In this document: positions 25,426 through 63,130 of the stretch, one piece after another | Numbering within the stretch: the stretch's first letter is position 1 | Layout: each line of letters opens with the position of its first letter | Assembly (NCBI GenBank): GCA_024639905.1 | Contig: JAHEGE010000008.1 | Location: 227,099-291,098 of the forward strand | Direction of reading: 5' to 3' | Length of the DNA stretch: 64,000 bases | From: Gammaproteobacteria bacterium | Lineage (GTDB): Bacteria; Pseudomonadota; Gammaproteobacteria; Pseudomonadales; Pseudohongiellaceae | The notes under the pieces: generated by a model | What the model saw: the letters and a program-made list of their open reading frames with translations, nothing else | Told to the model about the DNA's origin: nothing | Database searches by the model: none | Program-made: the position numbers and the translations under genes

Positions 25426-25627
25426 AACCCGGGGTCAGGTCTTTCATCGATGCACCAGAGGGGTCAGGTCTTTTGTTTATGCACCGAAGGTGCATGAATG
25501 AAAGACCTGACCCCGGACTGAAACACATCCACAACGCACGAATGAAAAATCTGACCCCGAGCTATCCCCCAATCCCCACGAAACCCATACTAAAAATGCA
25601 TCGATGAAAGACCTGACCCCGGGTTTA
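25426..25627. repeat. Compound palindromic repeat cluster, copy A
   Basis: Four arms of the window's repeat family lie together between the converging stop codons of gltD and the zinc-ribbon gene. The left edge reads AAAACCCGGGGTCAGG and the right edge ends GACCCCGGGTTTA. Between them a second, shorter palindrome (GGGGTCAGGTCTTTTG ... GAATGAAAGACCTGACCCC around GCACCGAAGGTGC) is nested, plus a degenerate half-arm (GAAAAATCTGACCCCGAG). The two outer TAA stop codons coincide with the repeat edges. It looks like one copy inserted into another, then partly decayed. Confidence 0.88.
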
Positions 25628-25924
25628 GCGGCCGCAGTGCACGCAGCGTTTCGTGATCAGATTTAGCAGAATACTCTTGACGAAGAATTGCTCTCCGCAA
25701 GTCGGGCAGCGTCGGCGCACCATATCGAGTGCGAAAACCGCATACAGGCCCATGTAAACCCACATCAGCGTCTCCACTTGGCGGCCATTACTTAATAGCA
25801 TCCATACGGCTAACACATACAGTGGCAGGGTCATAAAGCACACGAGCAGCCGCATCCGCGCCCGGAGCGCCGGCTTCACGGCGTCGCTTTGGGTGGTCTT
25901 TTGCTGCGAGTTCTCGTCATTCAT
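25625..25924 (-). CDS. Small membrane protein with C-terminal zinc ribbon
   Basis: The 99-residue product has a polar N-terminus and two membrane helices (LLVCFMTLPLYVLAVWMLL and MWVYMGLYAVFALDMV). A cytoplasmic tail carries CPTCG and CVHCG, a typical four-cysteine zinc ribbon. The function is unknown; zinc ribbons of this sort often mediate protein contacts. Its ATG overlaps the stop codon of the ABC exporter gene (TAATG), so the two are probably translationally coupled and may work together. Its own TAA stop is formed at the edge of repeat copy A. Confidence 0.75.
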   Translation of the reverse strand: MNDENSQQKTTQSDAVKPALRARMRLLVCFMTLPLYVLAVWMLLSNGRQVETLMWVYMGLYAVFALDMVRRRCPTCGEQFFVKSILLNLITKRCVHCGR

Positions 25925-27744
25925 TACTGATACCCCTCAGCCTGCAGCTTGAACAATGTCGCGTAGTGCCCACTGAGTGCCAGCAGCTCGTCGTGGCTGC
26001 CCTGCTCAATGATGCGCGACTTCTCTAACACGATGATGTGATCGGCGCGGCGCACTGTAGAGAAACGGTGCGAGATAATTATCGAAATCCTATTCGCGGT
26101 GAGCTCGGCGAAATGCGCAAAAATATCCGCCTCGGCTTTCGCGTCTATCGCCGCGGTGGGTTCATCGAGAATCAGTATGTCTGCCTTGCTGCGCATGAAC
26201 GCGCGCGACAACGCGACCTTTTGCCACTGCCCGCCAGAAAGCTCTTTCCCGTCTTTAAACCAAGTGCCGAGTTGAGTCTGATAGCCACTCGGTAGATCGC
26301 TAATAAAAGCATCGGCCATGCCTTTCTGAGCGGCCTCTTTTATTTCATCTTCCGCAGTTAGATTGTCGGCATCGCCTATGCCGATATTCTCTCCAACGAT
26401 GAGCTGATAGCGCGCGAAATCCTGAAAGATAACGCCGATCTTCTTGCGCAGCGTATCGATATCCCATTCTTGCAGCGGCAGTCCCTCGAGACTTATTACG
26501 CCGTGCGTCGGCGTATAAAGTCGTGTGAGCAGCTTTATCAGCGTGGTCTTGCCGCTGCCATTTTCGCCTACGATCGCCAAACTCTCCCCAGGAGTAATGT
26601 GCAGACTCACACTGTCGAGCGCGGGCACGTCGCTGCCGGGATAATAGAAGCTTACGTTGTCGAAACGAATGCCGTCTTCAGGTTTTGGCCCCGCGTGCAG
26701 CGATCCGCTGAGCTCCGGCACTTCATGGTCGAGGTATTCAGTCAGGTTCGATAAATACAGATTATCTTCATACATGCCGTTCACCGCCGTGAGGCTGCTG
26801 GTCACGGAGCCCTGCCCAAGCCGGAACTGGGCGATATACATGGTCATTTGACCGATCGTAATAGCACCGGCTATCGCGGCGAAGCCTACCCAGCCGTAAG
26901 CAAAGTAGAACGCGGCGCTGGCGAGAATGCCCAGACCATAACCCCACACGCCGCGGCGTAGAACGAGGCTGCGGTCTTCGCGGTACATGTCCAAAAAGAT
27001 GTCCACGTAGCGCTGAAGAAAAAGTTTGCCCAACTGCAGTAGCTTCACCTCTTTCACGCCGTCTTCACGTGTGAGCACCATCTCCAAATAAATTTGCATG
27101 CGTCGCTCGGCAGACCGGCGCTTATTCACCCTGAATGCTTCGCCTGAGAATTTTGCCTCGGCGATAAAGGCGGGAACGCCAGCGAGGCTGAGCAGCAACA
27201 CAGCCCAGGGAGAGAACTGAAAGAGGAAGGCGCCAATCGCGACGAGAGAGATGACGTTGCGCATGAGATCAAACGTTTTTGTCACCAGACTTAGCGGCCG
27301 TGAGCTCGCCTCGCGGCGCGCGCGGACCAGCTTGTCGTAGTATTCCGCATCTTCGAAATGCGCGAGCTCCAGCGTCAGCGCCTTCTCTAATATCATCACG
27401 TTGATTTTGTTGCCTAGCAACACTCGCAGTATCGCTTGGCACACGGTATTGGCCTGCTGGGCCGCGGTCATAAGAAGTACCAAGCCCACCTCGATGAAGA
27501 CGAAGTTGAGCGCCTGCGCTCGAGCGGCTTCAGCCTGAGCTCCGCTGGCGCCAAGCGCGCTAGCCACGGCATCGACGAACATCCCGCCGACCGAGGCGAT
27601 CGCTGCCGGCAGCACGCCCGCGATGAGCGTGGTAAGCGCCATTGCCAACATAAGCACTGCGCTGGTATCCCAGACGATACGCAGCGCAACAGCGCTGTAG
27701 CGGAATACGGAGAAAAAACGCGTAAGGAGAGTGATAGCGAACAC
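25924..27744 (-). CDS. ABC exporter, fused membrane and ATPase domains
   Basis: The 606-residue half-transporter has an N-terminal membrane domain of about six helices (residues 1-330) and a C-terminal ATPase. In the ATPase, GENGSGKTTLIK is Walker A, LSGGQWQKVALSRAF the signature, DILILDEPTAAID Walker B, and ISHRFSTV the switch histidine. The layout is that of homodimeric type IV exporters related to peptide and antibiotic exporters. The cargo is unknown and no precursor peptide or peptidase domain is evident. The only upstream start in frame is GTG at 27744, preceded by a purine run with little spacing, so the true start could lie a little downstream. It is separated from the methyltransferase gene by a strong terminator. 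Confidence 0.87.
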   Translation of the reverse strand: MFAITLLTRFFSVFRYSAVALRIVWDTSAVLMLAMALTTLIAGVLPAAIASVGGMFVDAVASALGASGAQAEAARAQALNFVFIEVGLVLLMTAAQQANTVCQAILRVLLGNKINVMILEKALTLELAHFEDAEYYDKLVRARREASSRPLSLVTKTFDLMRNVISLVAIGAFLFQFSPWAVLLLSLAGVPAFIAEAKFSGEAFRVNKRRSAERRMQIYLEMVLTREDGVKEVKLLQLGKLFLQRYVDIFLDMYREDRSLVLRRGVWGYGLGILASAAFYFAYGWVGFAAIAGAITIGQMTMYIAQFRLGQGSVTSSLTAVNGMYEDNLYLSNLTEYLDHEVPELSGSLHAGPKPEDGIRFDNVSFYYPGSDVPALDSVSLHITPGESLAIVGENGSGKTTLIKLLTRLYTPTHGVISLEGLPLQEWDIDTLRKKIGVIFQDFARYQLIVGENIGIGDADNLTAEDEIKEAAQKGMADAFISDLPSGYQTQLGTWFKDGKELSGGQWQKVALSRAFMRSKADILILDEPTAAIDAKAEADIFAHFAELTANRISIIISHRFSTVRRADHIIVLEKSRIIEQGSHDELLALSGHYATLFKLQAEGYQ

Positions 27745-27776
27745 CTTCTACAATCTGTTTCTACTTGGCGGAAACG

Positions 27777-27803
27777 AAAAAGGCTTCGCGACGAAGCCTT
27801 TTT
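27777..27803. terminator. Bidirectional intrinsic terminator
   Basis: AAAAAGGCTTCG is followed by CGA and then CGAAGCCTTTTT, a near-perfect stem with A and T tracts on the two sides. It ends the methyltransferase-like gene on the minus strand. It also lies just upstream of the ABC exporter, so the exporter needs its own promoter in the remaining 30 or so bases. Confidence 0.9.
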
Positions 27804-27825
27804 CAACTAGCTCTTTACACGTTAT

Positions 27826-28533: not shown

Positions 28534-28697
28534 GCGAAACTCCCTCTTTGATAGGTACTAGTGTGATTGATACTAGCTGCTGAATATTTCCGCGCCGCCA
28601 CCCTTCAAGGTCACAGGCACGATGCGAATAACAGCCCGAGGATAGCGCAAGCGGCGGGGGTGTTGCGAGGGGTATGGCGTATTTCCTGCCCGTAGGC

Positions 28698-28886
28698 CTA
28701 ATGCAGACGCCTCGAGACCTTAAGCTCTGTTTCGAAGAATGCCTTCACCTCCAGCAGCTGATCGAGGTCCCCTGCGCTCTCCATAAGCGGCAAATGATGC
28801 TCGATGTCGCTTAAGATGTTGGTCAGGCTGGCCGTGTCCAAGATGCTCAGGTCGAGATCGAAAGGAAAATCAGACTGCTTGGACAT
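28698..28886 (-). CDS. Small protein of unknown function beside a palindromic repeat
   Basis: From the ATG at 28886 (AGGAG ten bases upstream) the frame encodes 62 residues, acidic and probably helical (SLTNILSDIEHHLPL; QLLEVKAFFETELKV). I recognise no family. The frame stays open upstream to 29009, and the ORF track's longer version takes its first residues (MQLDASMKDLTPG) from repeat copy B. The upstream section uses more A/T-ending codons. Either the gene is truly short, or a longer gene lost its 5' end when the repeat inserted. It stands alone between the methyltransferase and the ubiquinone hydroxylase. Confidence 0.45.
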   Translation of the reverse strand: MSKQSDFPFDLDLSILDTASLTNILSDIEHHLPLMESAGDLDQLLEVKAFFETELKVSRRLH

Positions 28887-28971
28887 CGCTATCACGGCTC
28901 CTGAGGTGTGCCACATAGAATTAGGTTGCACCCCCAAAGTATCGACAGCCTGCAATAAAACCTTATAGAAC

Positions 28972-29053
28972 CCCGGGGTCAGGTCTTTCATCGATGCATC
29001 TAGCTGCATTTCTCGCCATCAAATGCATCGATGAAAGACCTGACCCCGGGTTA
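28972..29053. repeat. Palindromic repeat, copy B
   Basis: Left arm 28972-28999 (CCCGGGGTCAGGTCTTTCAT and GATGCAT) pairs perfectly over 28 bases with the right arm 29023-29050, with a 23-base loop containing AGCTGCATTT. The right edge runs into TTA, which is the TAA stop codon of the FAD hydroxylase gene on the minus strand. This is the best-preserved copy of the family. Confidence 0.95.
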
Positions 29054-30334
29054 GCGTGCGGTGCGGGTTAGGGCTTTGCGGAGGGGGGAGAAGGCATTGA
29101 CGGCGTTGAGGCCGGCATTTCGGAGCCAGCGCAGGGCGATGGGCTGCTCGCCGAAACCGCGCTTGAAGGCCTCCATAAGCGCCATCATGGCGAGATTGGG
29201 GCCTGTGCGTTGCCGCTGGTAGCGAGCTAACGGGGTGGGATCCTCGGGCTGGCGCCCCGCCTTAATGCCAGCTTCGATCTGCTCGGCGAGCGCCTCGACG
29301 TCGGCCAAGCCTAAGTTGACGCCCTGCCCGGCCAGGGGATGAATGGTGTGGGCGGCGTCGCCAACCAGCACCACATTGCCCTCGACGTAACGCTTAGCGT
29401 GTCGCTGGCGCAGAGGGAATGCAAAGCGCGTAGCGCTAGCCTCCACCCCGCCCAAGGCGCCCTCCATCGCCGCTGTCAGCTGGGCGTTAAAGGCAGCTTC
29501 GTCCAGAGCCATGAGCTCATCGGCACGCGCCTCGTCTGCCGACCACACTATCGAACAGTGCCGTCCCGGCCCGCTGTCGACGCCGTCAGCGAGGGGCAAG
29601 TAGGCTAACGGGCCAGTAGTGAGGAAGCGTTGAAGCGCAGTATGCGCGTGCGGCAAGGCGGTGCGAATCGTGGTGACTATCGCCTTCTGGCCATAGCTCC
29701 ATTCTCGGGTCTCGAAACCGGCGAGGCTGCGCAGAGGCGAATTACCGCCATCGGCCGCTATCACCAGCCTTGCAGACACCTCGCTACCATCGTCGCAGCG
29801 CAGCCGCGAAATAGGCCTGCTCCGTTCGCTATCGCGCTCGAGTGCCACCACGCTACGCTCACTGAATAGGGCCAGCGGCGCTCGACCCTCAGCTTGCGCC
29901 GTCTCATTATGGGCAGCGATACTGCCATAGAGCGCATTGAGTAGGAGTGAATTTTCAACAATCGTGCCCAACGATGGCTCATGGACTTCACGAGCATGAA
30001 ATTCGACCTGCCCGGTGCCGTCTTGTTCCCAGACTCGCATGTGGGCATAGTCGCAGCGCCGCAGGGTGTCCAGCTGCTGCCAGACGCCAAGTTCAGCGAG
30101 AAGCCGCTGCGACTGCGCGGTGAGAGCGACCACGCGTGGATCAAACTGCGAGACGTCTACTGGGCCGGCCTGCGGCTGCGCCCATGAAATGCCTCGCTCC
30201 AGAGCCCCCTTGTCTAGCAATCCGATGCGCAGGCCGCAGTCTGCGAGCCGCAGCGCAAGACTCGCCCCTACTAAGCCTGCGCCAACGATGAGCACATCGC
30301 AGTCCGGCTGCTTGTTCACCGTTTCGCTATTCAT
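29051..30334 (-). CDS. Ubiquinone biosynthesis FAD-dependent hydroxylase (UbiI/UbiF/VisC group)
   Basis: This aromatic-ring hydroxylase has the dinucleotide loop VLIVGAGLVGASLALRL at the N-terminus and the second FAD motif GDAAHTIHPLAGQGVNLGL near residue 310. A DG motif (VIAADGGNSPLR) lies between them. It belongs to the UbiH/UbiF/UbiI/Coq6 family that hydroxylates ring positions of ubiquinone precursors. A second member (31446-32663) sits beside pepP, so this one probably acts at another ring position; which one is not certain. The track starts 14 codons upstream at a GTG; the ATG at 30334 gives the usual short N-terminus, though neither has a strong ribosome binding site. Its stop codon coincides with the edge of repeat copy B. 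Confidence 0.88.
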   Translation of the reverse strand: MNSETVNKQPDCDVLIVGAGLVGASLALRLADCGLRIGLLDKGALERGISWAQPQAGPVDVSQFDPRVVALTAQSQRLLAELGVWQQLDTLRRCDYAHMRVWEQDGTGQVEFHAREVHEPSLGTIVENSLLLNALYGSIAAHNETAQAEGRAPLALFSERSVVALERDSERSRPISRLRCDDGSEVSARLVIAADGGNSPLRSLAGFETREWSYGQKAIVTTIRTALPHAHTALQRFLTTGPLAYLPLADGVDSGPGRHCSIVWSADEARADELMALDEAAFNAQLTAAMEGALGGVEASATRFAFPLRQRHAKRYVEGNVVLVGDAAHTIHPLAGQGVNLGLADVEALAEQIEAGIKAGRQPEDPTPLARYQRQRTGPNLAMMALMEAFKRGFGEQPIALRWLRNAGLNAVNAFSPLRKALTRTAR

Positions 30335-30542
30335 AGGCTTGTACACGCTTTCATCACCGGCGCCTTGTCTACACACAGTTGGTCTAATGGAGGCGCACAG
30401 TATAAGGCGAGGCGCCCGCCCCTGACTATCACCGCCGCCCTAGGGGTCACTCTCATAACCTTGGTACTCGCCAGATCTGCTGCTAGACTCAGCCCACACT
30501 CTTAAGACAAAACGCAGAAGAATCACAAAAAGGAAACCGCGA

Positions 30543-31007: not shown

Positions 31008-31026
31008 TCCCCAAAAGAGAATCCCA

Positions 31027-46467: not shown

Positions 46468-46614
46468 GTGCCAGAGAAAAACGCCGAAAAGTCAGCGCCA
46501 GACCAGCCAGAGAAAAAGAAGATCGTGCGCGAAGAGATCAAAGACCGCCACACCAGCCACTGGGACCTGGACATGCTCACCCGAGAAGAACTAGAACGCC
46601 TCCACAAGCAATAA
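46468..46614 (+). CDS. Small charged protein, 48 residues, not in ORF track
   Basis: A GTG at 46468, with GGAGA seven bases upstream, opens a frame for a 48-residue Lys/Glu-rich protein. The N-terminal half (EKNAEKSAPDQPEKKKIV) is disordered-looking; the C-terminal half (RHTSHWDLDMLTREELERLH) looks helical and compositionally specific. Its TAA stop lies four bases before the arm of repeat copy C. I do not recognise the family. The ribosome binding site, strand-specific codon use and the structured C-terminus support it. Confidence 0.6.
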   Translation: MPEKNAEKSAPDQPEKKKIVREEIKDRHTSHWDLDMLTREELERLHKQ

Positions 46615-46617
46615 CCC

Positions 46618-46702
46618 AAACCCGGGGTCAGGTCTTTCATCGATGCACTTAGCTGCATTTAATGCTAATAGATGCATCGATGAAAGACCTGACCCCGGGT
46701 TT
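46618..46702. repeat. Palindromic repeat, copy C
   Basis: Arms of 30 bases (AAACCCGGGGTCAGGTCTTT onward, 46618-46647, and its complement 46673-46702) pair perfectly. The 25-base loop shares AGCTGCATTT with copy B. The T tract on the right extends to TTTT. Confidence 0.95.
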
Positions 46703-49749: not shown

Positions 49750-52700
49750 ATGCGCAAGAACATCCCCAGCTCACGCCGGGCGCTCACGCTCGCCGTCATT
49801 TCTGGCCTATCGATTCACGCTTTACCTGCAGTTGCACAAGACACTCCAGTCGAAGAAGTCGTGGTTACAGGATCGTATTTTAGGGGCTCACCCCTCGATG
49901 CACCGTCACCCGTTCAGGTCGTAGACCGCTCTAGTATCGAAGCGCAAGGCGCCGCGGTAATTTGGGACGTGATCAAGAACCTGGAGGTTAACTCAGGTTC
50001 GATCTCAAACCCGGGCTCTGGCGACAACACACAGGTTAGTGGTTCGGCTAACGTAAACCTGCGTAACCTCGGCGAGAACTCCACGCTCACGCTGATCAAC
50101 GGCAAGCGCATGGTGCCTGCCGCGGTCACTACCCGCAGCGGCGGCGAGTTCGTCGATCTCAACTCGATTCCCCTGGTTATGACTGACCGCGTCGAAGTCC
50201 TCACGGACGGCGGCTCAGCACTCTACGGCGCAGATGCCGTGGCGGGCGTGGTAAACATCATCATGCGCGACGATTTCCAAGGTTTCGAGCTCTATGGCGA
50301 TATCCAAGGCGTCCAAAAAGCCGACGAGAAATACGACCAGACAGTCAGCGCGATTTGGGGCTGGGAAAGCAACGATGGCGACACTAACTTGGTTGTCTCT
50401 GCCGAACGTTTCGAGCGCGACCCGGTCACCGTTCGTGAAACTAACGCGTTCAGCGATCTGCAAGACTTCCAAGGTGTTGTTAGTGCGGTTGGCGGCTTCT
50501 TCGCCAGTGCCGCGATCGGCGCACCTACACCAATGGCTTGGCTGAACACCGGCATCATGGGACGTAATGCAGCGCAGGGCGGCAGCGCCTCAGCTCCAGT
50601 ATGGACCGATCCGCTGTGTGACAACACCTTCGCCGCAGACGGCGGAACATTCCTAGAACCAGGTGGTCGACGTTACAACCAAGGTCAAGCAGGTGGCGCA
50701 TGCCTCGACGATAATTCCGAATGGGTTATCGCTGCACAAGAAACTGTACGCAACAGCTACGCAGCGACTTTTGCGCACCGATTCAATGATTCAGCAGAAT
50801 TCTACGGCTTTGCGCAGCATTCTGAATCAACCATTCATCGCGGTGATGACGGCTACAACGAATCTCGCGGCCCGACTATCTTCTTACCGCAGCCAGGAGC
50901 ACATGGCGGCAATCCGGTTGGCGCCTATCTCGAGCTCGGCGCCTTCGCGGCGGCTGCGGGCAATACGCCTCCAACCGCAGCAGATATGCCAAACCACCCG
51001 CTGTCAGTAGCGAATGGAGGACCAGGTATGGCAACTTGGTCACAAGTACGCAACGGCATCCTCCGTCCAGGCGGCGACGGCAACATTACGGAGACTTCGA
51101 GCTCTGCTGTGCAAGTTGGCCTGCGTGGTACTTTTGACGCCTTCGACAGAGAGCTCAACTACGATGTTGGTTATTCTTTCAGTGAGTCATCGATGGAAGA
51201 AAACTACCGTACATTCAATCGAGAAAAAACTGAGCTCGCAGCTCTGGGTCTAGGCGGTGAAAACTGCACGCCAAACGGCGTTTCAGACTTCGACTACGCA
51301 GGCGCGCCAGGTGCTTTTGGTTTCTTGCCGAACCTCTGGAATTCGGACGCCGCGGCGTTTAACCAGACCTTCTTCCCTGCATTCGTCTTCACCACTCGCG
51401 AATCAGTGTCATTGGGTCTGACCAGTAACAACCAAGGACAGGGCGGCTGCCAGTTCTACAATCCGTTCTTGACGCAGCTTAGCAACCCTAATGTTGCCAA
51501 CGACCCTGCGCTGATGGACTACATACTTGAAGACGTTCGTCGTGTAGATAAGCGCAACAAGCTAGCCGTGTTCGACGCCGTTGTTTCTGGCGAGTTGTTC
51601 GATATGAAAGGCGGCACAGCACAGTTCGCTGTAGGCGGCCAGTACCGCGATCGCAACACCAAGGAAATCGCGAACGAGCTGCACTACCCGGGTTTGCAGA
51701 ACCGTATACTCGGTTATGACGAAAACGGTGTGCCAAACGACTTCCATCGTGTGAGCAACAACTTTGAGTGTGCGATGTGTGCATTCAACTATAACGATAG
51801 CCGCACGACTTCGGCTGCGTTCATGGAGCTCTCACTGCCGTTCATCGAAAACGTTGAGACTCAAATCGCCCTGCGTTTCGAAGATTACGGAGGCAACATT
51901 GGTAGCGAGCTGTCACCTAAGATCGCGATGAGCTGGCGTCCATTCGAAGAGCTGTTGATTCGTGGATCATTCTCACAGTCATTCCGCGCGCCTAACATCG
52001 CCATCGTGCAGACAGGCTTGCAGTCGTCTTCCGTAACCTTCCAAGATCCTATCTCGAGCCAAAAGGTTCGTGCGGGTCTGGTTCCACCTACCATCGCAAA
52101 CGCGGAGCGCGAATCGACTTACACACTCGGTGGCCCAGCGCCCACAGTGGGTAATGAGTACGCAGACACCTACAGTGTCGGCTTCCTTTGGACACCGAGC
52201 GGCACGCTTGACGGCCTGAGCCTTGGCGCAGACATGTGGCGTTTCGAAGTGAGCGACCGCGTGTTGCCTGAGCCTCCAATCAACGCGCTACAGCCTGAGC
52301 TCGACGCGTTCATCGCGGCGTCTCAGAACGAAGCTAATTACGTACTGAACGATTCGATCTCTCTCGATTCGCCAGTGGTTAACGTGCCTTGTTCACCGTC
52401 TGCCATTGCAGCCGAGTTTGGAGTTGACTCACCAGAGCGCCTCAACTGCGTGGTTGCGCCGACAGCTTACATCGTCCCGAACATTCAGCGCCCAGTAGGC
52501 AATGAGTTCGGCGACCTCGTGACGCTGACACTTAGCGCAGTTAACGCTGGTGAAATTACGGCTGACGGCATCGACCTGAAGGCTGGTTACGGTTTCAGCA
52601 ACAGCCTCGGCCAGTTCGCTGCTAACATCACTTACACACACGTGCGTCAGTATGCCTTTAGCGGTGTCCCAGGCATGGTAAACGGCCTACTAGACACGGG

Positions 52701-53115
52701 CGAGTACGACGCAGCTGGTACAACTGGCGACGGCAACCTCGTGCGTTCAATGCCTGACAACAAAGGCACGATCACGATGAACTGGCGCAACGGCGACCAC
52801 GGCGTTACGCTGATCAACCGCCACATCGGTTCGTACCGCGACCTCGGCTACGAAGGTGCTATCCTCGTTGCTAACGACTTCACGCGACCACTACTGTCAC
52901 GCGAGATCGGCAGCTACAACACGTGGGATGTGCAATATAACTACAACAAAGCTTGGGACAACTCACGCTTTGGTAGCACAACCTTCACGGTTGGTCTGTT
53001 GGATGCGTTCAACAAGACTCTGCCTTACCGCGAGTTGAGCGCATTGAACTACGACGCGGCCGTGTTTGAAGGCCGTGGCAAGCGCTGGTACGCCCGCGCA
53101 CTGTGGTCGTTCTAA
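49750..53115 (+). CDS. TonB-dependent receptor, first tandem copy
   Basis: The 1121-residue receptor begins with a signal peptide (RALTLAVISGLSIHALPAVAQ) and a TonB-box-like VEEVVVTGSYF. The plug domain contains LRNLGENSTLTLINGKRMV and GSALYGADAVAGVVNII, and the barrel ends in WYARALWSF, an aromatic BAM signal. The size and the VVVTG start match large receptors for peptides or oligosaccharides in marine Gammaproteobacteria; the substrate is unknown. An ECAMCAF segment in the barrel could form a disulfide. AAGGGAG lies before the start, and an AT-rich palindrome (TTTTATA-AC-TATAAAA) at 49711-49726 lies just upstream. The gene downstream is its paralogue. Confidence 0.93.
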   Translation: MRKNIPSSRRALTLAVISGLSIHALPAVAQDTPVEEVVVTGSYFRGSPLDAPSPVQVVDRSSIEAQGAAVIWDVIKNLEVNSGSISNPGSGDNTQVSGSANVNLRNLGENSTLTLINGKRMVPAAVTTRSGGEFVDLNSIPLVMTDRVEVLTDGGSALYGADAVAGVVNIIMRDDFQGFELYGDIQGVQKADEKYDQTVSAIWGWESNDGDTNLVVSAERFERDPVTVRETNAFSDLQDFQGVVSAVGGFFASAAIGAPTPMAWLNTGIMGRNAAQGGSASAPVWTDPLCDNTFAADGGTFLEPGGRRYNQGQAGGACLDDNSEWVIAAQETVRNSYAATFAHRFNDSAEFYGFAQHSESTIHRGDDGYNESRGPTIFLPQPGAHGGNPVGAYLELGAFAAAAGNTPPTAADMPNHPLSVANGGPGMATWSQVRNGILRPGGDGNITETSSSAVQVGLRGTFDAFDRELNYDVGYSFSESSMEENYRTFNREKTELAALGLGGENCTPNGVSDFDYAGAPGAFGFLPNLWNSDAAAFNQTFFPAFVFTTRESVSLGLTSNNQGQGGCQFYNPFLTQLSNPNVANDPALMDYILEDVRRVDKRNKLAVFDAVVSGELFDMKGGTAQFAVGGQYRDRNTKEIANELHYPGLQNRILGYDENGVPNDFHRVSNNFECAMCAFNYNDSRTTSAAFMELSLPFIENVETQIALRFEDYGGNIGSELSPKIAMSWRPFEELLIRGSFSQSFRAPNIAIVQTGLQSSSVTFQDPISSQKVRAGLVPPTIANAERESTYTLGGPAPTVGNEYADTYSVGFLWTPSGTLDGLSLGADMWRFEVSDRVLPEPPINALQPELDAFIAASQNEANYVLNDSISLDSPVVNVPCSPSAIAAEFGVDSPERLNCVVAPTAYIVPNIQRPVGNEFGDLVTLTLSAVNAGEITADGIDLKAGYGFSNSLGQFAANITYTHVRQYAFSGVPGMVNGLLDTGEYDAAGTTGDGNLVRSMPDNKGTITMNWRNGDHGVTLINRHIGSYRDLGYEGAILVANDFTRPLLSREIGSYNTWDVQYNYNKAWDNSRFGSTTFTVGLLDAFNKTLPYRELSALNYDAAVFEGRGKRWYARALWSF

Positions 53116-53450: not shown

Positions 53451-56400
53451 ATGCGTAGAAACTTCCCCAGCACGCGCCGGGCACTTACGCTCGCCGTCAT
53501 GGCTGGCTTATCAGTACAAGCAGTTCAGGCAACCGCTCAAGACACCCCCGTCGAAGAAGTCGTGGTCACCGGATCGTATTTTAGGGGCTCACCTCTCGAC
53601 GCGCCCTCGCCGGTTCAAGTGATTGATCGCTCCAGTATCGAAGCGCAGGGCGCTGCGGTGATTTGGGATGTCATTAAAAACTTGGAAGTGAACTCCGGCT
53701 CGATAACCAATCCCGGCTCGGACAACGGCCAAGTAGAAGGCACCGCAAACGTCAACCTGCGTAACCTCGGCGAGAACTCCACACTCACGCTGATCAATGG
53801 TAAGCGAATGGTCCCAGCCGCTGCGACGACGCAGAGTGGCGGTGAGTTTGTCGACCTTAATTCTATCCCACTCGTCATGACTGATCGCGTCGAAGTGCTA
53901 ACCGATGGCGGCTCAGCACTCTACGGCGCAGATGCGGTTGCGGGTGTGGTCAACATCATCATGCGCAATGATTTCGAAGGTCTCGAGCTCTACGGCGATC
54001 TGCAAGGCGTCGAGCAGGCGAGCGGCGCGTACGATGCCACGGTTAGCGGCATTTGGGGCACGTCGTTCAACGACGGTGCGACTCACTTAGTGCTTTCTGC
54101 AGAACGCTTTGAAAGAGACCCCGTCGCAGTGAAGGACGCCAATTTTTACGGGCCATATTCTGAATTTCTCGGCACGGTCTCCGACGCAGGAACATTAATT
54201 AACAACCCTGCATTTGGCGCAAATTTCAATGCGGCCCAGTGGCTCAACACAGAGATCTACACGCAAAATCTCGCAGAGGGTGGCAATCCTGCTAACTATA
54301 TCTACACCGATCCGAACTGCTACACGACCACGCTATCAAACGGCAGCAGTCCACAGATCGGCAGGCTTCGAGAGGATCGAGGCGAAAAGGCTGGCACTTG
54401 CCGCGCAGACACGTCAGAGTGGAATTACGTGTCAAACGCCACTGAGCGAAACGCCTTCGCTGGCTCCTTCAATCATCAGTTCAATGACACCACCGAGTTT
54501 TACTCGTTTTTCAGTCACTCCGATTCTAAAACGACTCGAGCAGATGACGGTTACAATCAGTCTCGAGGACCAACCGTCTTTTTAGCGCCCCCTAACTCTT
54601 ACACACGAAATCCGGCGTACGGTTTCAATGCTATCGGTCAGACAATGGAGCTCGGATTTTTTGCGCCGGCCGCGGGACTCACTCGTCCTACGCTGGCTGA
54701 TATGCCCAATATGCCTCTAGCTGCCAGTAACGGAGGCCCCAACGTAGCCATGTATCAGGGCGTACGTGATGGTATCGATCGAACTGGCGCTGCAAACAAC
54801 ATCACCGAAACAAGCACGGTGAGTGTACAGGCCGGATTGAAGGGAGAATTTGAAGCTTTCAACCGCCCAATGAGCTTCGATGTTAGCTACTCGTGGGGCG
54901 GCTCTTCGCTAGAGCAGCAGTATAAAACCTTCAACCGCGACCGCTCAGAGCTCGCAGCCAATGGATTGGGGGGCCCAAACTGCACACCAAACGGCATTCC
55001 AGACTTTGACTTTGCCGGCCAGCCAGGGCCTTTCGGCGGCGCTGTTCCCCAAATATGGGACTACTACTCCCCTGGTCTCGTCCAGACATTCTTCCCTGGA
55101 TTCGTATTTACTACGCGTGAAAATTTGTCCTACGCACTGACCAGTAACAACCAAGGCCAGGGCGGTTGTATGTTCTACAACCCTTATCTGAGCCAACTGT
55201 CTGATCCGAACCTCGCAAATAGTCGTGAGCTTATGGATTGGATGAACGTGACAGTTGATCGTGTTGACAAGCGCAACAAACTTGCCGTCTTTGATGCAGT
55301 AGTCTCGGGCGAATTGTTCGAGATGAAAGGCGGCACAGCACAGTTTGCTGTGGGCGGTCAGTACCGTGAGCGAAATACGAAAGAAGAGGCGTCGGAACTC
55401 CACTATCCAGGTCTCCAGAATCGTATATTGGGTTATGACGAGAACGGCGTGCCAAACGAGTTCCACCGCGTGAGCAACAACTTCGAGTGTGCTATGTGCG
55501 CGTTTAACTACAATAATACTCGCACAACGAAAGCGGCCTTTATGGAGCTATCGCTGCCATTTATTGAAAACGTGGAAACACAAGTCGCTCTTCGTTTTGA
55601 AGACTACGGCGGACAGATAGGTAGTGAGCTTTCGCCAAAGATAGCGATGAGCTGGCGGCCAGCTGAAGACATCTTGGTCCGCGGTTCATTCTCTCAATCG
55701 TTCAGAGCACCAAACATCGCGATTGTGGAGACAGGTCTGCAGTCTTCCTCGTACACGTTCCGAGACCCAATCTCAAATCAGGCGGTACGTGCAGGACTGC
55801 TCCCGCCGATCGACGCAAACGCGGAGGCCGAACAAACCTATACGCTGGGTGGTCCAGCGCCTTATGTCGGCAATGAGTATGCCGACACCTACAGTCTTGG
55901 ATTTCAATGGACTCCCTCTGGTGCGCTGGAAGGCCTGACTGTTGGCGCCGATTTCTGGCGATTCGAGGTGAGCGATCGCGTACTGCCTGAGCCTCCAATT
56001 CGCGCAATTCAGCCCGAAATTGATGCCTTCCTCGCTGCCTCGAAAGACGAGTCGAACTACATTTTAAATGACTCGATTCCTGCAGATTCACCCTATCCCT
56101 TCCCTTATCAGGCGTGTAGTCCCTCGGCCATTGAGGCCGAATTTGGACGTGACTCTGAGGAGCGTCTCAACTGCGTAGTCGACCCCCGTGCCTACTACGT
56201 CAACGGAATCCAGAGAGCATTCGGTACAACAACCGCCAATCTGATTACCACAACGTTGCGCGCTATTAATGCCGGCGACATCACGGCAGACGGGGTTGAC
56301 CTCTCAGGCGGCTACAGCTGGTCAAACGATTGGGGCCTCTTTAGTGCTCGTCTCAACTACACCCACGTGCGTCAGTACCGTCTCGACAACGTACCTGGGC

Positions 56401-56840
56401 TAGAAAGAGGTCTGCTGGATACTTACGTGTTTGATGCGGCAGGTACCACGGGTGACGGTAATATCGTTCGCTCCTTGCCTGATAATAAGGGCACCTTGAC
56501 GTTAGCATGGCAACGAGATGCGCACGGGGTTAGCCTCATAAATAGGCATATCGGTTCCTACCGGGACTTAGCCTACCAAACAGCATTTGAAAGCGGCTCT
56601 GATTTCACGCGCAGCATGCTCGACGAGAAGATCGACAGCTACAACACGTGGGATTTCCAATACCGTTACTCGAAGGACTGGGGAGGCCGGGTAGGCACAA
56701 CAAACTTCACTTTAGGGGTTCTAGACATGTTTAATGAGGACATCCCCTACCGAGAAGTCGGATCGCTCAACTACGACACGATTGTATTTGATGGCCGTGG
56801 CCGACGCCTCTACGCAAGGGTGCTGTGGCAGATCCAATAA
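53451..56840 (+). CDS. TonB-dependent receptor, second tandem copy
   Basis: This 1129-residue receptor is a close paralogue of the one just upstream. The first 150 residues and a block near residues 620-780 (FAVGGQYRERNTKE; ENGVPNEFHRVSNNFECAMC) are almost identical, while residues 220-450, probably outer loops, differ widely. The signal peptide ends TAQD and the C-terminus is YARVLWQIQ, lacking the terminal aromatic residue. The substrate is unknown. It has its own ribosome binding site (GAGGGAG) and terminator and so can be expressed separately. Confidence 0.93.
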   Translation: MRRNFPSTRRALTLAVMAGLSVQAVQATAQDTPVEEVVVTGSYFRGSPLDAPSPVQVIDRSSIEAQGAAVIWDVIKNLEVNSGSITNPGSDNGQVEGTANVNLRNLGENSTLTLINGKRMVPAAATTQSGGEFVDLNSIPLVMTDRVEVLTDGGSALYGADAVAGVVNIIMRNDFEGLELYGDLQGVEQASGAYDATVSGIWGTSFNDGATHLVLSAERFERDPVAVKDANFYGPYSEFLGTVSDAGTLINNPAFGANFNAAQWLNTEIYTQNLAEGGNPANYIYTDPNCYTTTLSNGSSPQIGRLREDRGEKAGTCRADTSEWNYVSNATERNAFAGSFNHQFNDTTEFYSFFSHSDSKTTRADDGYNQSRGPTVFLAPPNSYTRNPAYGFNAIGQTMELGFFAPAAGLTRPTLADMPNMPLAASNGGPNVAMYQGVRDGIDRTGAANNITETSTVSVQAGLKGEFEAFNRPMSFDVSYSWGGSSLEQQYKTFNRDRSELAANGLGGPNCTPNGIPDFDFAGQPGPFGGAVPQIWDYYSPGLVQTFFPGFVFTTRENLSYALTSNNQGQGGCMFYNPYLSQLSDPNLANSRELMDWMNVTVDRVDKRNKLAVFDAVVSGELFEMKGGTAQFAVGGQYRERNTKEEASELHYPGLQNRILGYDENGVPNEFHRVSNNFECAMCAFNYNNTRTTKAAFMELSLPFIENVETQVALRFEDYGGQIGSELSPKIAMSWRPAEDILVRGSFSQSFRAPNIAIVETGLQSSSYTFRDPISNQAVRAGLLPPIDANAEAEQTYTLGGPAPYVGNEYADTYSLGFQWTPSGALEGLTVGADFWRFEVSDRVLPEPPIRAIQPEIDAFLAASKDESNYILNDSIPADSPYPFPYQACSPSAIEAEFGRDSEERLNCVVDPRAYYVNGIQRAFGTTTANLITTTLRAINAGDITADGVDLSGGYSWSNDWGLFSARLNYTHVRQYRLDNVPGLERGLLDTYVFDAAGTTGDGNIVRSLPDNKGTLTLAWQRDAHGVSLINRHIGSYRDLAYQTAFESGSDFTRSMLDEKIDSYNTWDFQYRYSKDWGGRVGTTNFTLGVLDMFNEDIPYREVGSLNYDTIVFDGRGRRLYARVLWQIQ

Positions 56841-56851: not shown

Positions 56852-56882
56852 GAAAAACGGCGCCAAGGCGCCGTTTTTTTTT
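56852..56882 (+). terminator. Terminator after second tandem receptor
   Basis: AAAAACGGCGCC is followed by AA and GGCGCCGTTTTTTTTT, a strong stem with a long T run. Confidence 0.93.
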
Positions 56883-56886
56883 GCCC

Positions 56887-56922
56887 AAAACCCGGGGTCA
56901 GGTCTTTCATCGATGCATTTTT
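56887..56922. repeat. Single arm of the palindromic repeat family, copy D
   Basis: Only the left arm (AAACCCGGGGTCAGGTCTTT ... ATGCATTT) is present. No matching right arm follows. It is probably a truncated copy. It lies after an ordinary terminator, unlike the others. Confidence 0.88.
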
Positions 56923-57031: not shown

Positions 57032-59105
57032 CATGAATACCTCCTCAAAACTATTGCCCGCACTGCTCTTGGCAAGCTTAGTTGCTTGTAGCGATCAGCC
57101 GGCAGAGCCGCAGGCTAGCGTTCCAGCGCCTAAGCCCACCCCAGAACTCGGCGATTTCGGTATCGACCTCAGCCAGCAAGACCCAGCTGTCAAACCCGGC
57201 GACGATTTCTTCCGCTTCGCCAACGGTAAATGGCTAGAGGAATTCGAACTGCCTGCGGATCGCAGTAATTACGGATCATTCACTGTACTTGGCGACAGGT
57301 CAGACCAGCGTGTAAACGCTATCATCGATGAGCTCGCTGCAGCGGAGCCTGCAGCCGGTACGATCGAGCAAAAAATCAGCGACTACTACCTGAGCTTCAT
57401 GAACACCGAGGCACTGGATGCGCGCGGCATTAGCCCGCTGCGTGAAAGCCTTGCCGCACTAGCCGAGATCGATACCAAGGCCGAACTGATTGCGGCACTC
57501 GGCCGCTCACAGCTGGATGCAACCGCGAGCCCCTTTGGCTGGTATGTCGGCGCAGATCGCCGCGATCCCGATCGCCATCAATTAGTCTTGAGCCTTGGCG
57601 GCATCGGCCTTCCTGATCGCGATTATTACTTATTGGACACAGAGCAGTACCAAAATGTCCGTGCCGAATACGTCGCGCACATCGAGCGGATGCTGAACTT
57701 TGCCTCCGTAGACAACGCAGCTGACAAGGCAAATGCGGTACTCGCCTTGGAAACTGCGATCGCTCAGAACCTCTGGCCACGCGCCGATCGCCGCAACCGC
57801 GACCTCACATTTAACCCGATGACCTATGCAGAGTTCACCGCGGAATATCCCGGCATGGATTGGGACGCATACTGGGGTGCGGCGGGCATCGACGAGATCA
57901 GCGACCTCAATGTTAGCTACCCAAGCGCCATGGCGCCGGTGATCGCGCTACTCGATTCGATTCCCGTTGCGGACTGGGTTAGCTACATGAGCTATCAGCA
58001 CATCTCAAATCTCGCCAGCGTGTTGTCGCAGGAAATAGATGACGAGAATTTCCATTTCTACTCAACCGTACTTAATGGTGTGCCGGAGCAACGTCAACGC
58101 TGGGAGCGCGGTGTTGCCCGAGTCGGCGCGCTTAACAGCTTAGGCGAGGCGGTTGGCCAGATCTACGTGCAGAAGCATTTCCCCGAGGCCGCTAAACAGC
58201 AGATGCAAGATCTCGTCGAGAATCTGCGCGCTGCATTGAACGACAGCATTAACGGGCTGGACTGGATGGGTGACGAGACCAAGGTCGAGGCACGTTTAAA
58301 GCTCGAATCATTTAGGCCGAAGATCGCCTATCCCGACGAGTGGAAAGACCTGTCGGCGATCGAGATTAGTCGCGACGATTTGTTCGCCAACGCGCGAAGC
58401 GTGCGCGAATTTAATTACCTCGATGAGATTAGCCGACTCGGCACGCCCACCAATCGTGAAGAGTGGGGTATGACTCCCCAAACGGTGAATGCGTACTACA
58501 ACTCATCGTTCAATGAAATCGTGTTCCCCGCCGGCATCTTGCAACCGCCGTTTTTTGATCCAGCGGCCGATCTAGCCGTGAACTACGGCGGCATCGGCGC
58601 GGTGATCGGCCACGAGATGGGCCACGGTTTCGATGACCAGGGCTCTAAGTCTGACTACCAAGGCGTCCAGCGCAATTGGTGGACAGACGCTGACCGCGAA
58701 AATTTCGAAGAACTGACCACGGCGCTGGCCGCGCAATATGACGAGTTCGAGCCGGTGCCGGGCTACTTCGTTGATGGCAACTTTACGCTCGGTGAAAACA
58801 TCGGTGACGTAGGCGGGTTGTCGCTTGCATACCGCGCCTATAAGCGCGCACTGAACGGGGAAGAAGCGCCTGTTATCGACGGCCTCACAGGCGATCAGCG
58901 CTTCTTTTTGAGCTGGGCACAAGTCTGGCAGCGAAAATACCGCGAAGACGCACTCATTCAGCGCCTCACCTCGGACCCTCATTCGCCTTCAGAATTCCGC
59001 GTAAACGGTGTGGTGCGCAACTTCGACGAATGGTACCAAGCCTTCGGTGTACAACCAGAAGACGCGCTTTACCTAGCCCCCGAAGACCGAGTCCGCATCT
59101 GGTAA
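57032..59105 (+). CDS. M13-family zinc peptidase lipoprotein
   Basis: The protein is a neprilysin-family (PepO-like) endopeptidase for short peptides. From the ATG at 57032 (GGAG seven bases upstream) a lipoprotein signal with lipobox LVAC precedes the mature enzyme; the track's start at 56964 adds unlikely residues. The active site is VIGHEMGHGFDDQG (HExxH), with ENIGDVGGL supplying the third zinc ligand. The substrate-binding VNAYYNSSFNEIVFPAG is intact, and the C-terminal acidic ends match the family. At 690 residues the length is usual. It should act in the periplasm or at the outer membrane. The TAA stop coincides with the left edge of repeat copy E. Confidence 0.94.
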
Positions 59106-59192
59106 AACCCCGAGGTCAGGTCTTGCATCGATGCATTCGTTAGCTAAACTTGCAGCTAAATGCATCGTTGAAAGACCTGACCCCGGGTTTTA
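59103..59192. repeat. Palindromic repeat, copy E
   Basis: A full copy with a few mismatches (left arm CCCCGAGGTCAGGTCTTGCA; right arm TGCATCGTTGAAAGACCTGA). Both edges coincide with TAA stop codons: of the M13 peptidase on the left and of the TonB receptor on the right. It fills the whole space between the two converging genes. Confidence 0.92.
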
Positions 59193-61334
59193 GAAGGTGC
59201 CGCGGATCTTGATGGCCAGGACCGGGCCGGCATCTGAGCAGGAATCTTCGATCTCTTCTATGAACCCGGTGGCGATGGTGCCGCCGGTGTATCGTGTCCG
59301 AATTCTGCAGCGATCTCGCGCATCGCGAACCTCAAACCGATAGATCATGCCGCCGTTACCCTGAGCTTCTACCCATGCTGAGTAGAACCCGAACTTGGGG
59401 TATTGCTCGATCTTATCGATGTCATAAACGCGGAACTCGTTGTAGAACTCCCGGCGATAGTTGAGCCCGTAGTTCATGTTGCGGAAAGACGGGATATCGT
59501 GCCGAAAGCCAAAGCTGTAACTACTGCCGCCGCCGCGCATTGAGCGCTCGCGATCTTGCTGCAGAAACGGATCTGTTAACGTCGACTCTTCCATATTCAG
59601 CGCAGCGGTCACCAGCATTTGCGGCTGATTCAAGAACCCCAAACGCAGGCTGCTGTTCAGTCTGAATCCATACCGCTCCCCTGTCCCTATATTTCCTCGA
59701 GCAGACAGAATGGTATCGCCGGTGGACACATCAACATTGTCGATGAGATCGTCGAGATCCTGATAGAACACATTGCCGCTCACGACGCCTGCATCATTCG
59801 GCAGCCTGTACTCTAAATTTCCTTCGTACTGCCACCACTGCTGTTGCCGCAAGTTAGAATTGCCTTCGAAGGCATTCTGTTCGTCGTCACCGCCGTCGAC
59901 CCCCGCGGTGAAGTCGCGGAAGCTCAACTGGGCTACGTTCTTTTCCACCGTTGCACGAAACTGCACCGAGCTCGTGAGATCAAAACGATAGTCGAAGCGT
60001 GGCCTAAAGAAAGTGAAATCTCGAGAGCGATCGATCGAGCCGGTTTGTGCGATCGTGCTGTCTTCAAACAACATCGTGCTTTCTATGCTCATGCGAGCAT
60101 TGAGCTGCCAATTGTGTATCGCGAAATATTCGTAGCGCATCTCTTCGACTGTGCCAACCGAATCGGTGACAGCGGCTAGCCCACCGAAACGCTCGCCTCC
60201 GGAAGTCGAGCCGGCCAAGCCGAGTTGTAGCGACGTATCTAAAATCGTCTGCGCTCGTTCAACGCCAGCCTCAACTGACTGCGTCTCGGTGAGATTCGCG
60301 ATGTAAGACGAGCGTACGATACGCTCGCGCGTTCTTTCGATGTTCGACAAAAACAGGTCGCGCTCGCGGCTCTCTCCGTCTAGCTGATAACGGCTGCGTA
60401 CCGAATTATTGTCACGATCGTTAACTATAAATAGCGTCTTCCAACGATTTCCGCTGCCAAACACATGCATGTAGTCGCCGCCGATTTCCCAGTTGCTTTC
60501 GTCCGTAGGAACTTCATCGCGCTCGAAAGTGACACTGGCGGGGGAGACCGATAAATCTGTGAGCACGCGATCGGCATAGGCATCGTAGGCGTTGTCGTTC
60601 CACTGCAGGTTCAGGTTTGCAGTATCTTGCCGGGTAAACTCGTATCCCAGATTAGCTTGTAAAGTAGTAGGCCAAGCATCGCGCCCCTCGTCTCGATCCA
60701 CGGTGTTCGATAATGAGCCATCTACATTAAGGCCGTTCTCAAAGCCGTCGCGGAACTCCCATCGTGGCTCGAGCTCGGCGCTAAGGAAAAAATTCAATGC
60801 GCCATTCTGGCCAGTCGCCGACAGCTTCGCGCCTGGCATAATTTTGCCATCGTGGTAGTGGTCTGCGTTTACCTCGTAAGCATAAGACACGCTTGCTTCG
60901 GCTTGCGTGAGCACCACGTTGATAACCTGATTGCCGCCGCGCACATCAAGGTCGCCCGATGTGCCGCGAATAATCTCAATGTATTCGACTTCGCTCGCCG
61001 GAATGCGTGAAAGCTGCGCATTGCCCTCGTTGCCTTTGCCGGCGATGCGGCGGCCGTTGATTAGCACCTGATCACCGCCTGCACCGAGGCCGCGCCTATC
61101 CCCGCCGCCACCGCCACGTGCAGTATCGATACCAGGAATTCGCACAAGCATGTCGTTAACCGAGAACGGTTGGTACTGATCGAAGTAGTCGGCCTGATAG
61201 ACAACCGTTGAGGAGGCATCCGCGTCCTCTTGGCCAAGAACGGCGGTAGAGTGAACCGCCAACAGCGCGACGGATAGCCCTATGGCGAGAGGCAGACGCG
61301 ACGGCTTAAATCCGTTAGAGTTTGTTTTTAGCAT
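59190..61334 (-). CDS. TonB-dependent receptor beside D-aminoacylase
   Basis: The 714-residue receptor has a signal peptide (LPLAIGLSVALLAVHSTAVLG), a compact plug (NDMLVRIPGIDTARGGGGGD; DQVLINGRRIAGKG; YIEIIRGTSGDLDVRGGN) and a barrel ending VLAIKIRGTF. The plug carries no clear TonB box beyond TVVYQADYF. The substrate is unknown, but the gene shares a 103-base divergent promoter region with a D-aminoacylase, which suggests import of N-acylated or D-amino-acid-containing compounds. Its TAA stop coincides with the right edge of repeat copy E. Confidence 0.9.
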   Translation of the reverse strand: MLKTNSNGFKPSRLPLAIGLSVALLAVHSTAVLGQEDADASSTVVYQADYFDQYQPFSVNDMLVRIPGIDTARGGGGGDRRGLGAGGDQVLINGRRIAGKGNEGNAQLSRIPASEVEYIEIIRGTSGDLDVRGGNQVINVVLTQAEASVSYAYEVNADHYHDGKIMPGAKLSATGQNGALNFFLSAELEPRWEFRDGFENGLNVDGSLSNTVDRDEGRDAWPTTLQANLGYEFTRQDTANLNLQWNDNAYDAYADRVLTDLSVSPASVTFERDEVPTDESNWEIGGDYMHVFGSGNRWKTLFIVNDRDNNSVRSRYQLDGESRERDLFLSNIERTRERIVRSSYIANLTETQSVEAGVERAQTILDTSLQLGLAGSTSGGERFGGLAAVTDSVGTVEEMRYEYFAIHNWQLNARMSIESTMLFEDSTIAQTGSIDRSRDFTFFRPRFDYRFDLTSSVQFRATVEKNVAQLSFRDFTAGVDGGDDEQNAFEGNSNLRQQQWWQYEGNLEYRLPNDAGVVSGNVFYQDLDDLIDNVDVSTGDTILSARGNIGTGERYGFRLNSSLRLGFLNQPQMLVTAALNMEESTLTDPFLQQDRERSMRGGGSSYSFGFRHDIPSFRNMNYGLNYRREFYNEFRVYDIDKIEQYPKFGFYSAWVEAQGNGGMIYRFEVRDARDRCRIRTRYTGGTIATGFIEEIEDSCSDAGPVLAIKIRGTF

Positions 61335-61437
61335 TGTTATGACTCGTGTTTTCGAAACGTCGAAACTAGCACAACAAGCGGCTAAAAATTAACAACATTT
61401 TGTAACGAATTGGGCTTTCTTCGAGGCACATTTTTAG

Positions 61438-63048
61438 ATGAAACACACATCGATAGCCATTCAGACACGCGCAGTTAGCTTTGCGCTTTTTACCGTGCTT
61501 TTTTGCGCCAGCGCCGCCATTGCTCAAGACTTCGACATCGTTATTCGCGATGGCCGTATTGTCGATGGCTCTGGTAACCCGTGGTATGAGGCGGATGTTG
61601 GTATCCGCGGCGATCGAATCGCACAAATAGGCGATTTAAGCGAAGCAAAGGCGGAGCACACCATCGACGCCCGAGGCCTCGTCGTGGCGCCGGGCTTTAT
61701 CGACCCACACACGCATGCGCTAAACGGCATATTCGGCGTGCCCACCGCGGAGAGTTCGCTGCTGCAAGGCGTCACGACGCTGACTGAAGGCAACGACGGC
61801 AGCTCACCTTTCCCAATTGCTGCTCATTACGCCGAGGTCGAGGCAAAGCGGCTCAGTCCAAACTGGGCAGTATTCGTCGGCCAAGGAACGATCCGGCAGC
61901 GCGTCATCGGCAGTGAAGACCGCGACGCAACATCGGCCGAGATCGAGCAGATGAAGGCCATGGTCGCCGAGGCGATGGAAGACGGCGCCTTGGGTATTTC
62001 TACCGGGCTGTTTTATGTGCCTGGCAGCTTCACCCCTACAGACGAGGTGGTGGAGCTGTCGAAGGTCGCCGCAAGCTATGGCGGTATTTACATCTCCCAT
62101 ATGCGGGAAGAGGCGAATCAACTGCTCGATTCGGTTAACGAAACCATCGCGATCGGGGAAAAGGCCGGCATTCCCGTGCAGATAACCCACCATAAGGTTA
62201 TCGGAGTTCAGAACTGGGGCGCAGCGCGTGAGAGCTTGAGCTTAGTCGATGCGGCCCGCGCTCGCGGCATCGACGTGACGATCGATCAGTATCCCTACAC
62301 CGCCTCGCAAACTAGCATTAATGCGCTGATTCCCCAGTGGGCGCAGGAAGGCGGACGTGCTGCGATGTTGGCGCGCATTGCCAGTGCGGAGACTCGGGGC
62401 GCGGTTAAGGCTGCGATTGTCGACAAGATTCTTTTCGACCGTGGCGGCGGCGATGCGAAAAATGTCTCGATCTCGCGCAGCCCCAACGACCGCTCTATTG
62501 AGGGTAAAAATCTAGCGGAGATCACCCGCGAACGCGGATTCGAGCCTACACCCGAGAACGCAGCCGAAACGGCGATGGATATTGTTGGCATTGGACAGGT
62601 GAGCGCGGTCTACCACGCGATTGGGCCGCAGGACGTTGACCTCATTATGCAGCACCCGGCGGCGGCGATCGGGTCGGATGGGCCTGTGGGCGTATTCGGC
62701 GAAGGCGCGCCGCATCCCCGCCAGTACGGCACCTTCGCGCGAGTGCTGGGTCACTATGTGCGCGAGCGCAACCTCATAAGCCTTGAAAATGCCGTTCGCA
62801 AGATGACAAGCCTGACCGCCCAGAGACTCAGCATCCGCGACCGCGGCCTCTTAGTCGAGGGCTACTATGCCGACATTGCGGTCTTCAACCCCGACACAAT
62901 CACCGATAAAGCCACCTTCGATCAGCCCCATCAATATGCCGAGGGCGTCGACACTGTCCTCGTCAACGGCATCGTCGTCGTCGCCGATGGCCAACACACC
63001 GGCGCTCGCCCCGGCCGCGTCCTCCGCGGCCCCGGCCACGCCCCCTAA
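61438..63048 (+). CDS. Exported D-aminoacylase (N-acyl-D-amino-acid deacylase)
   Basis: This amidohydrolase-fold protein removes acyl groups from N-acyl-D-amino acids. A signal peptide (FALFTVLFCASAAIAQ) places it in the periplasm. The metal-binding segments are GFIDPHTHALNG near residue 85, THHKVIG near residue 250, and GSDGPVGVFGEGAPHPRQYG near 410 (quoted in part: GSDGPVG). LTEGNDGSSPFP and SHMREEANQLLDSV are characteristic of D-aminoacylases. At 536 residues the length fits. GAGG lies about 11 bases before the ATG. It is divergent from the TonB receptor gene. Its TAA stop is flush with repeat copy F. Removal of D-residues from peptidoglycan-derived or modified peptides is a plausible role. 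Confidence 0.91.
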   Translation: MKHTSIAIQTRAVSFALFTVLFCASAAIAQDFDIVIRDGRIVDGSGNPWYEADVGIRGDRIAQIGDLSEAKAEHTIDARGLVVAPGFIDPHTHALNGIFGVPTAESSLLQGVTTLTEGNDGSSPFPIAAHYAEVEAKRLSPNWAVFVGQGTIRQRVIGSEDRDATSAEIEQMKAMVAEAMEDGALGISTGLFYVPGSFTPTDEVVELSKVAASYGGIYISHMREEANQLLDSVNETIAIGEKAGIPVQITHHKVIGVQNWGAARESLSLVDAARARGIDVTIDQYPYTASQTSINALIPQWAQEGGRAAMLARIASAETRGAVKAAIVDKILFDRGGGDAKNVSISRSPNDRSIEGKNLAEITRERGFEPTPENAAETAMDIVGIGQVSAVYHAIGPQDVDLIMQHPAAAIGSDGPVGVFGEGAPHPRQYGTFARVLGHYVRERNLISLENAVRKMTSLTAQRLSIRDRGLLVEGYYADIAVFNPDTITDKATFDQPHQYAEGVDTVLVNGIVVVADGQHTGARPGRVLRGPGHAP

Positions 63049-63130
63049 ACCGGGGTCAGGTCTTTCCTCGATGCAGCTTACTGCATAAATCGCTAACGAA
63101 TGCATCGTTGAAAGACCTGACCCCGGGTTT
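63046..63130. repeat. Palindromic repeat, copy F
   Basis: A full copy with a degenerate left arm (TAAACCGGGGTCAGGTCTTT then CCTCGATGCAG) and a better right arm ending CCCCGGGTTT. The TAA at its left edge is the D-aminoacylase stop codon. Confidence 0.9.

Follow-up and report, generated by a model that had tools for sequence, protein, structure and literature searches.

Dozens of stop codons across a 2.67 Mb genome of Pseudohongiella type (26 contigs) are in direct contact with the ends of a palindromic repeat. These contacts are real and genome-wide. Comparison with orthologous genes shows the joint as a T followed by AA, read in frame as TAA; this T opens the native stop codon or, in a minority of genes, a codon located a few residues before the native end. 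The class to which the repeat belongs, linked to a transposase, is known; the precise takeover of the stop codon is unusual. We give an even chance to the explanation that accounts best for the data, in which the repeat would be a non-autonomous, REPIN-like mobile element with two inverted arms round a short loop, accompanied by half copies and clusters. Its copies would have inserted without a target, survived where the joint restored an in-frame TAA, and lost the 3' non-coding DNA at their ends.

Copies in the window

The window is the whole stretch of 64,000 nucleotides that was analysed (G000:C26:227099-291098); its gltD gene has Pseudohongiella MAGs among its best matches. With up to three mismatches allowed, the 20-mer AAACCCGGGGTCAGGTCTTT has 12 matches in the window and none in 100 dinucleotide-preserving shuffles. 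The original prediction saw the same palindrome at six places. Four of these are indeed full palindromes, whereas the copy at 25425-25626 is composite and that at 56888-56920 is a single arm. All six contacts with stop codons are present as described, at gltD, a 99-aa ORF (the putative zinc-ribbon gene of the original prediction), a FAD hydroxylase, an M13 peptidase, a TonB-type receptor and a D-aminoacylase-like gene. Pfam backs the identities FAD, M13, TonB-plug, amidohydrolase and GltD-type oxidoreductase, and finds no match for the 99-aa ORF or for a 48-aa ORF at a seventh contact.

The gltD-type gene (23992-25425) ends on the plus strand with a TAA at 25423-25425 that is flush with the element, T-AAAACCCGGGG. 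Here the composite copy begins, with its left arm at 25425-25454, a small hairpin of a second type (type-C) at about 25455-25520, a degenerate arm at about 25546 and the right arm at 25594-25626, which is flush with the minus-strand TAA (25625-25627) of the 99-aa ORF (25625-25924). The full palindrome at 28969-29053 has a 31-bp stem and a minimum free energy (MFE) of -63.6 kcal/mol. It meets the TAA (29051-29053, minus strand) of the FAD-binding hydroxylase (29051-30334), whose orthologue in G024, the genome that matched most strongly among those of the genus in the search, is two residues longer and ends in TGA. At the seventh contact the stop codon of the 48-aa ORF (46612-46614) lies 3 nt from the AAACCC edge of the full palindrome at 46618-46702 (MFE -64.7 kcal/mol), as had been noted; the intervening CCC makes TAACCC (46612-46617, plus strand), a stop with the remnant of a flush edge in a form known from other stop codons.

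The half copy at 56888-56920 (plus strand) forms no palindrome (fold z = +0.2) and sits directly behind an ordinary T-tailed terminator hairpin at 56853-56878. The full, imperfect palindrome at 59105-59190 is flush with both of two convergent genes, namely the M13 peptidase (TAA at 59103-59105, plus strand), which has the identical end residue in G024, and the TonB-type receptor (59190-61262; TAA at 59190-59192, minus strand). The last full palindrome, at 63047-63130 (MFE -50.4 kcal/mol), adjoins the TAA of the amidohydrolase or D-aminoacylase-like gene (63046-63048, plus strand); when the element is removed at this edge (63052) the T meets GA, and the resulting TGA is the stop codon of the G024 orthologue. 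The window also holds a tandem duplication, formed by the adjacent ORFs 49750-53115 (1121 aa) and 53499-56840 (1113 aa), with 300-nt blocks of 78-81% DNA identity that lie 3.7 kb apart.

The repeat family and its transposase

The core GGGGTCAGGTCTT has 139 exact copies in the genome and the reversed control has none. The main form of the repeat has arms AA(A)CCCGGGGTCAGGTCTTTCATCGATGCAT and exists both as half copies and as palindromes in which about 60 nt separate the two cores; its outer edges are mostly C-AAACCC, G-AACCCC or T-AA(A)CCC. The minor form, type-C, is the small hairpin GGGGTCAGGTCTTTTGTTTATGCACCGCAGGTGCATGAATGAAAGACCTGACCCCGGGTTT, which occurs clustered. There are 22 two-arm elements of almost uniform spacing, each with two inverted units. 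Target site duplications of at least 2 nt accompany five of the 22 (2.4 expected), which is not clearly above chance, as expected of HUH Y1 enzymes and unlike DDE-type MITEs. Duplication of TA or of any other target was rejected, none being clearly above chance. The arm pattern was found in none of the 83 other genomes of the genus that were searched, the core is absent from G024, and a literature search with the core sequence returned no paper on it. The spread of the repeat appears to be recent and specific to one species.

The REP- and RAYT-like nature suggested in the original prediction is supported by one intact Y1 transposase gene of 280 aa (C26:311903-312742, minus strand), 21 kb beyond the window. 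The protein has an HYH motif and a C-terminal helix-turn-helix; it scores 39 bits with PF01797 and 71 bits with NCBIfam NF047646 (REP-associated tyrosine transposase), just under the cut-off of 80, and HTH_28 matches residues 242-277 under its cut-off. The ATG is preceded by a two-arm copy at a distance of 27 nt. Relatives of the transposase occur in 132 of 230 genomes of the class, and most of the 30 best have GGGGTCAG(G) repeats in their flanks, many of them on both sides.

The TIR repeats of TIRYT transposases have the consensus GGGGWSAS (Di Nocera 2013, PMC3733652), a motif that the core GGGGTCAG matches in 139 copies, and TnpA-Y1 subclass 2.1 or RAYT group 1 corresponds to the TIRYT-type class (PMC6006769). 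The family fits, by its sequence, the terminal-inverted-repeat (TIR) repeats of TIRYT-type HUH/Y1 transposases, with which it shares the motif, a Y1/HUH transposase with a C-terminal helix-turn-helix, the occurrence as singles, dimers and groups, and a copy beside the transposase gene. It differs from them in the extra AA(A)CCC outside GGGG, in having more than 100 cores, in ends that are fused in frame to stop codons as TAA, and in the lack of any matching repeat on the 3' side of the transposase gene in this genome. It is the shared motif that points to a mobilisation of the repeat by the linked transposase, which would then be the source of the copies.

Contact with gene ends has been described for other repeats. 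REPs less than 20 bp from both ORF ends of convergent genes have been reported, and the ends of GTAG-REPs often supply a TAG stop codon (PMC3733652), which is a precedent for repeat ends that provide stops. GTAG REPs and REPINs with RAYT are likewise dispersed inverted-repeat units near 3' ends, with two inverted units. The main element here, however, is a palindrome of about 85 bp without GTAG at the foot of the hairpin (TA|GGGG edges are confined to the minor type-C hairpin), it yields TAA instead of TAG, and contact is the rule (46/74). Ordinary REP behaviour was rejected as an account of the contact on a 250 kb sample of E. coli K-12, where the REP edge nearest to a stop codon is at 5 nt and none is at 3 nt or less. 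YPAL, Correia/NEMIS, ERIC and RUP MITEs are also small palindromic mobile repeats near genes, and YPALs are described as often lying close downstream of stop codons. Those MITEs have target duplications and/or TA ends, neither of which was detected here (for YPAL properties other than stop proximity see PMC2229807).

Repeats with the same core in the genomes G218, G234, G292 and G223 start at GGGG, without AACCC, and only one of their 24 arms that face a gene end (counted within 300 nt) lies within 6 nt of a stop codon; contact as a general trait of the transposase clade was rejected on this count. Among the genomes compared, stop contact is common only here and goes with the AA-ended variant of this species. 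The ends of integron attC sites, RYYYAAC...GTTRRRY, often overlap the stop codons of cassettes, and the edges YYTAAC...GTTARR with their stop overlap resemble them. An identity of the repeat as attC is nevertheless extremely improbable: copies lie between convergent housekeeping genes, several of them syntenic with relatives, in both orientations and also as half copies. It was rejected for want of an integrase, as the genome has no integron integrase above cut-off (best TIGR02249 score 46 bits versus 265).

Composition of the stop joint

Stretches round the copies listed in the genome searches (the window and L033-L066) were fetched and genes were called with our own codon-score caller, with which single small ORFs are uncertain; d is the distance from the stop codon to the first G of the core. 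In 46 of 74 CCC-edged arms that face a gene end, a stop codon, nearly always TAA, lies at d 3-6 from GGGG, with sharp peaks at 3 and 4, i.e. TAA-CCC or TAA-ACCC/TAA-CCCC. TAA ends 42 of 50 flush genes as against 81 of 194 other genes (p = 7e-8), and most single arms face gene ends. At d 7-60, TAA is followed by A0-2CCC in 7 of 16 arms but in only 2 of 75 control genes with TAA; of the seven, two are inner cluster arms, and the five outer ones retain a remnant edge (TAACCC) at the stop, e.g. TAACCCGGAATCAAACCCGGGG. A remnant TAACCC(GG) at the stop with a second copy edge within 15 nt was seen at L052 13673, L066 2414, L045 14389, L049 2158 and 46612 of the window. At such sites a single gene end has received copies in succession or nested in each other, and the stop is still formed by the older edge.

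Arms can be read open for at least 10 codons in all three frames. At L035 3573, L053 1954 and L044 8467 the reading frames of three genes continue into the arm and terminate there (d = -34, -34 and -22), so joints in the wrong frame exist, though they are rare. The minor hairpin (window 25455-25520; L036 2482-2622; L064 3568-3647; L066 2540) has a left edge ...TA|GGGG, which at three gene ends yields a TAG stop in frame (d = -1), a second type of stop from one and the same repeat system.

Which bases belong to the gene was read from G024. Among 34 flush TAA genes with an orthologue there, the orthologue stops with TAG in 16 and with TGA in 7 cases (23/34 not TAA); here TAA stands where the orthologue has TAG or TGA, which identifies the T as the gene's own and the AA as the element's contribution. 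The suggestion that the element brings the TAA with it thus holds for the AA and fails for the T. The companion idea, that it replaces the native gene end, is right only in the sense of a C-terminal shortening by 0-7 residues and, at several sites, of a loss of 3' non-coding DNA. Compared with G024, 18 of 35 flush genes have an equal C-terminus, 15 are shorter by 1-7 residues and 2 are longer; of 60 control genes 40 are equal, 12 shorter and 8 longer (Mann-Whitney p = 0.007).

The alternative that the element targets stop codons as DNA sequence found no confirmation. Edges that face a gene start are preceded, before the A-run, by C in 19, G in 14 and T in 10 cases (T 10/43), and the same-core repeats of the four other genomes are not flush. 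The lack of a preference for T at edges away from gene ends means that the T at gene ends is there because a stop is required, not because the element follows a target rule. TAA as an insertion target was rejected, since G024 orthologues of flush genes use TAA in 11 of 35 cases and those of control genes in 25 of 60.

When two-arm elements were removed in silico, T+AG, T+GA or T+AA was restored, by our reading, at 11 of 21 flush edges; at L039 removal restores both convergent genes, which then overlap as CTAG. In relatives the stops of the convergent pair 46/47 overlap or abut already. E. coli TnpA-REP cleaves at CT dinucleotides. These observations favour insertion by the transposase complex after the T of a stop-like CT^RR, such as the overlapping CTAG of convergent genes, a reading that we regard as unlikely. 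It agrees poorly with the predominance of C or G before the A-run at edges away from gene ends and with the same-core repeats elsewhere that are not flush; moreover, an enzyme acting on DNA is blind to the frame, yet the shortened genes are in frame. C precedes the stop T in 26 of 50 flush genes and in 75 of 194 others (p = 0.11), an excess that is not significant, and CT^ was rejected as a target on this basis. At 10 of the 21 flush edges removal does not restore the native stop, and insertion alone does not explain those edges.

Loss of 3' DNA and origin of the contacts

The unrestored flush edges seem to have lost native DNA. Intergenic DNA aligns poorly to G024 (coding DNA identity about 70-82%), and non-coding losses were judged by length and anchors, not base by base; on these terms about 117 nt of G024 sequence are absent at the FAD hydroxylase, and three convergent pairs with gaps of about 50-85, 14-74 and 38-119 nt in relatives have little besides the element here. 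The convergent genes at L043 5704/5776 (5704-5776) are separated by 4.2 kb in G024, but here they are neighbours on either side of a single element, which marks the place of the 4.2 kb loss relative to that genome.

The lineage is markedly compacted at 3' ends. Element-free convergent gaps in the stretches from this genome (window, L033-L066) have a median of 19 nt and often lack a terminator, and in five pairs compared the median is 15 nt here and 58 nt in G024. A genome that is compact at gene ends even without the element makes contact easier. Together with the disappearance of native 3' DNA at several sites, these gaps lend some weight to the view that copies landed anywhere in 3' UTRs and that ordinary deletions, strong in this genome, removed the remainder later. 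We consider it improbable: ordinary deletions should keep the native TAG or TGA and produce uneven distances or arms that are partly consumed, whereas the arm here is complete down to the terminal AA and 42 of 50 genes stop with TAA.

The full copies fold at about -50 to -71 kcal/mol, and the original prediction ascribed to each copy the architecture of a bidirectional terminator. This was not borne out. An intact second arm within 95 nt is lacking at 26 of 52 flush edges, half of the flush copies having lost the full palindrome; T tracts are only 2-4 bases long, and copies adjoin ordinary terminators. A role in termination is conceivable for the full copies but cannot account for the pattern. 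More generally, copies might be kept as functional 3'-end elements, the hairpin or arm after the stop acting as terminator, mRNA stabiliser or translation brake. The stable folds, the mostly terminator-free convergent gaps without an element and the single arms that mainly face gene ends speak for such a function, to which we assign a low probability in view of the lost second arms, the short T tracts, the native terminators that persist beside copies, and the lack of the family in all sister species searched.

In the explanation that we favour, untargeted insertion with survival of joints that restore a TAA, the transposase would have no sequence preference for stops when it inserts copies. 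Where a copy lands within or beside the end of a gene, the joints that persist would be those that give the gene a stop at once, and joints without one would be purged; out of frame, the gene would acquire a tail encoded by the element. Native 3' non-coding DNA bordering the exact element ends would disappear afterwards, through deletions anchored at the element or through recombination of neighbouring copies, and this would go on until the edge reaches the coding sequence. At that point the TAA would be a stable end state, because it does duty as the gene's stop codon. Against this explanation, copies situated a few to tens of nt beyond a stop are scarce (about 10 outer arms). Random insertion at neutral 3' UTR sites predicts many of them, so either survival must be very strong or the proposed trimming is needed. 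There is a small chance that the transposase itself trims the adjacent DNA, joins the AA end to an upstream T and halts at an in-frame TAA. If so, gene 3' ends would be rewritten genome-wide in a self-limiting process, and a selfish repeat would become the stop codon and hence could not be lost.

The family offers a clear, countable case: in one marine species, about 50 genes have had an essential coding signal taken over by a mobile repeat. With it, the persistence of REP-like elements in compact genomes can be tested directly, and the places where HUH/Y1 transposases of the poorly studied TIRYT group insert may be found. For annotators it means that C-termini and stop codons in this genome have been remodelled by a repeat.
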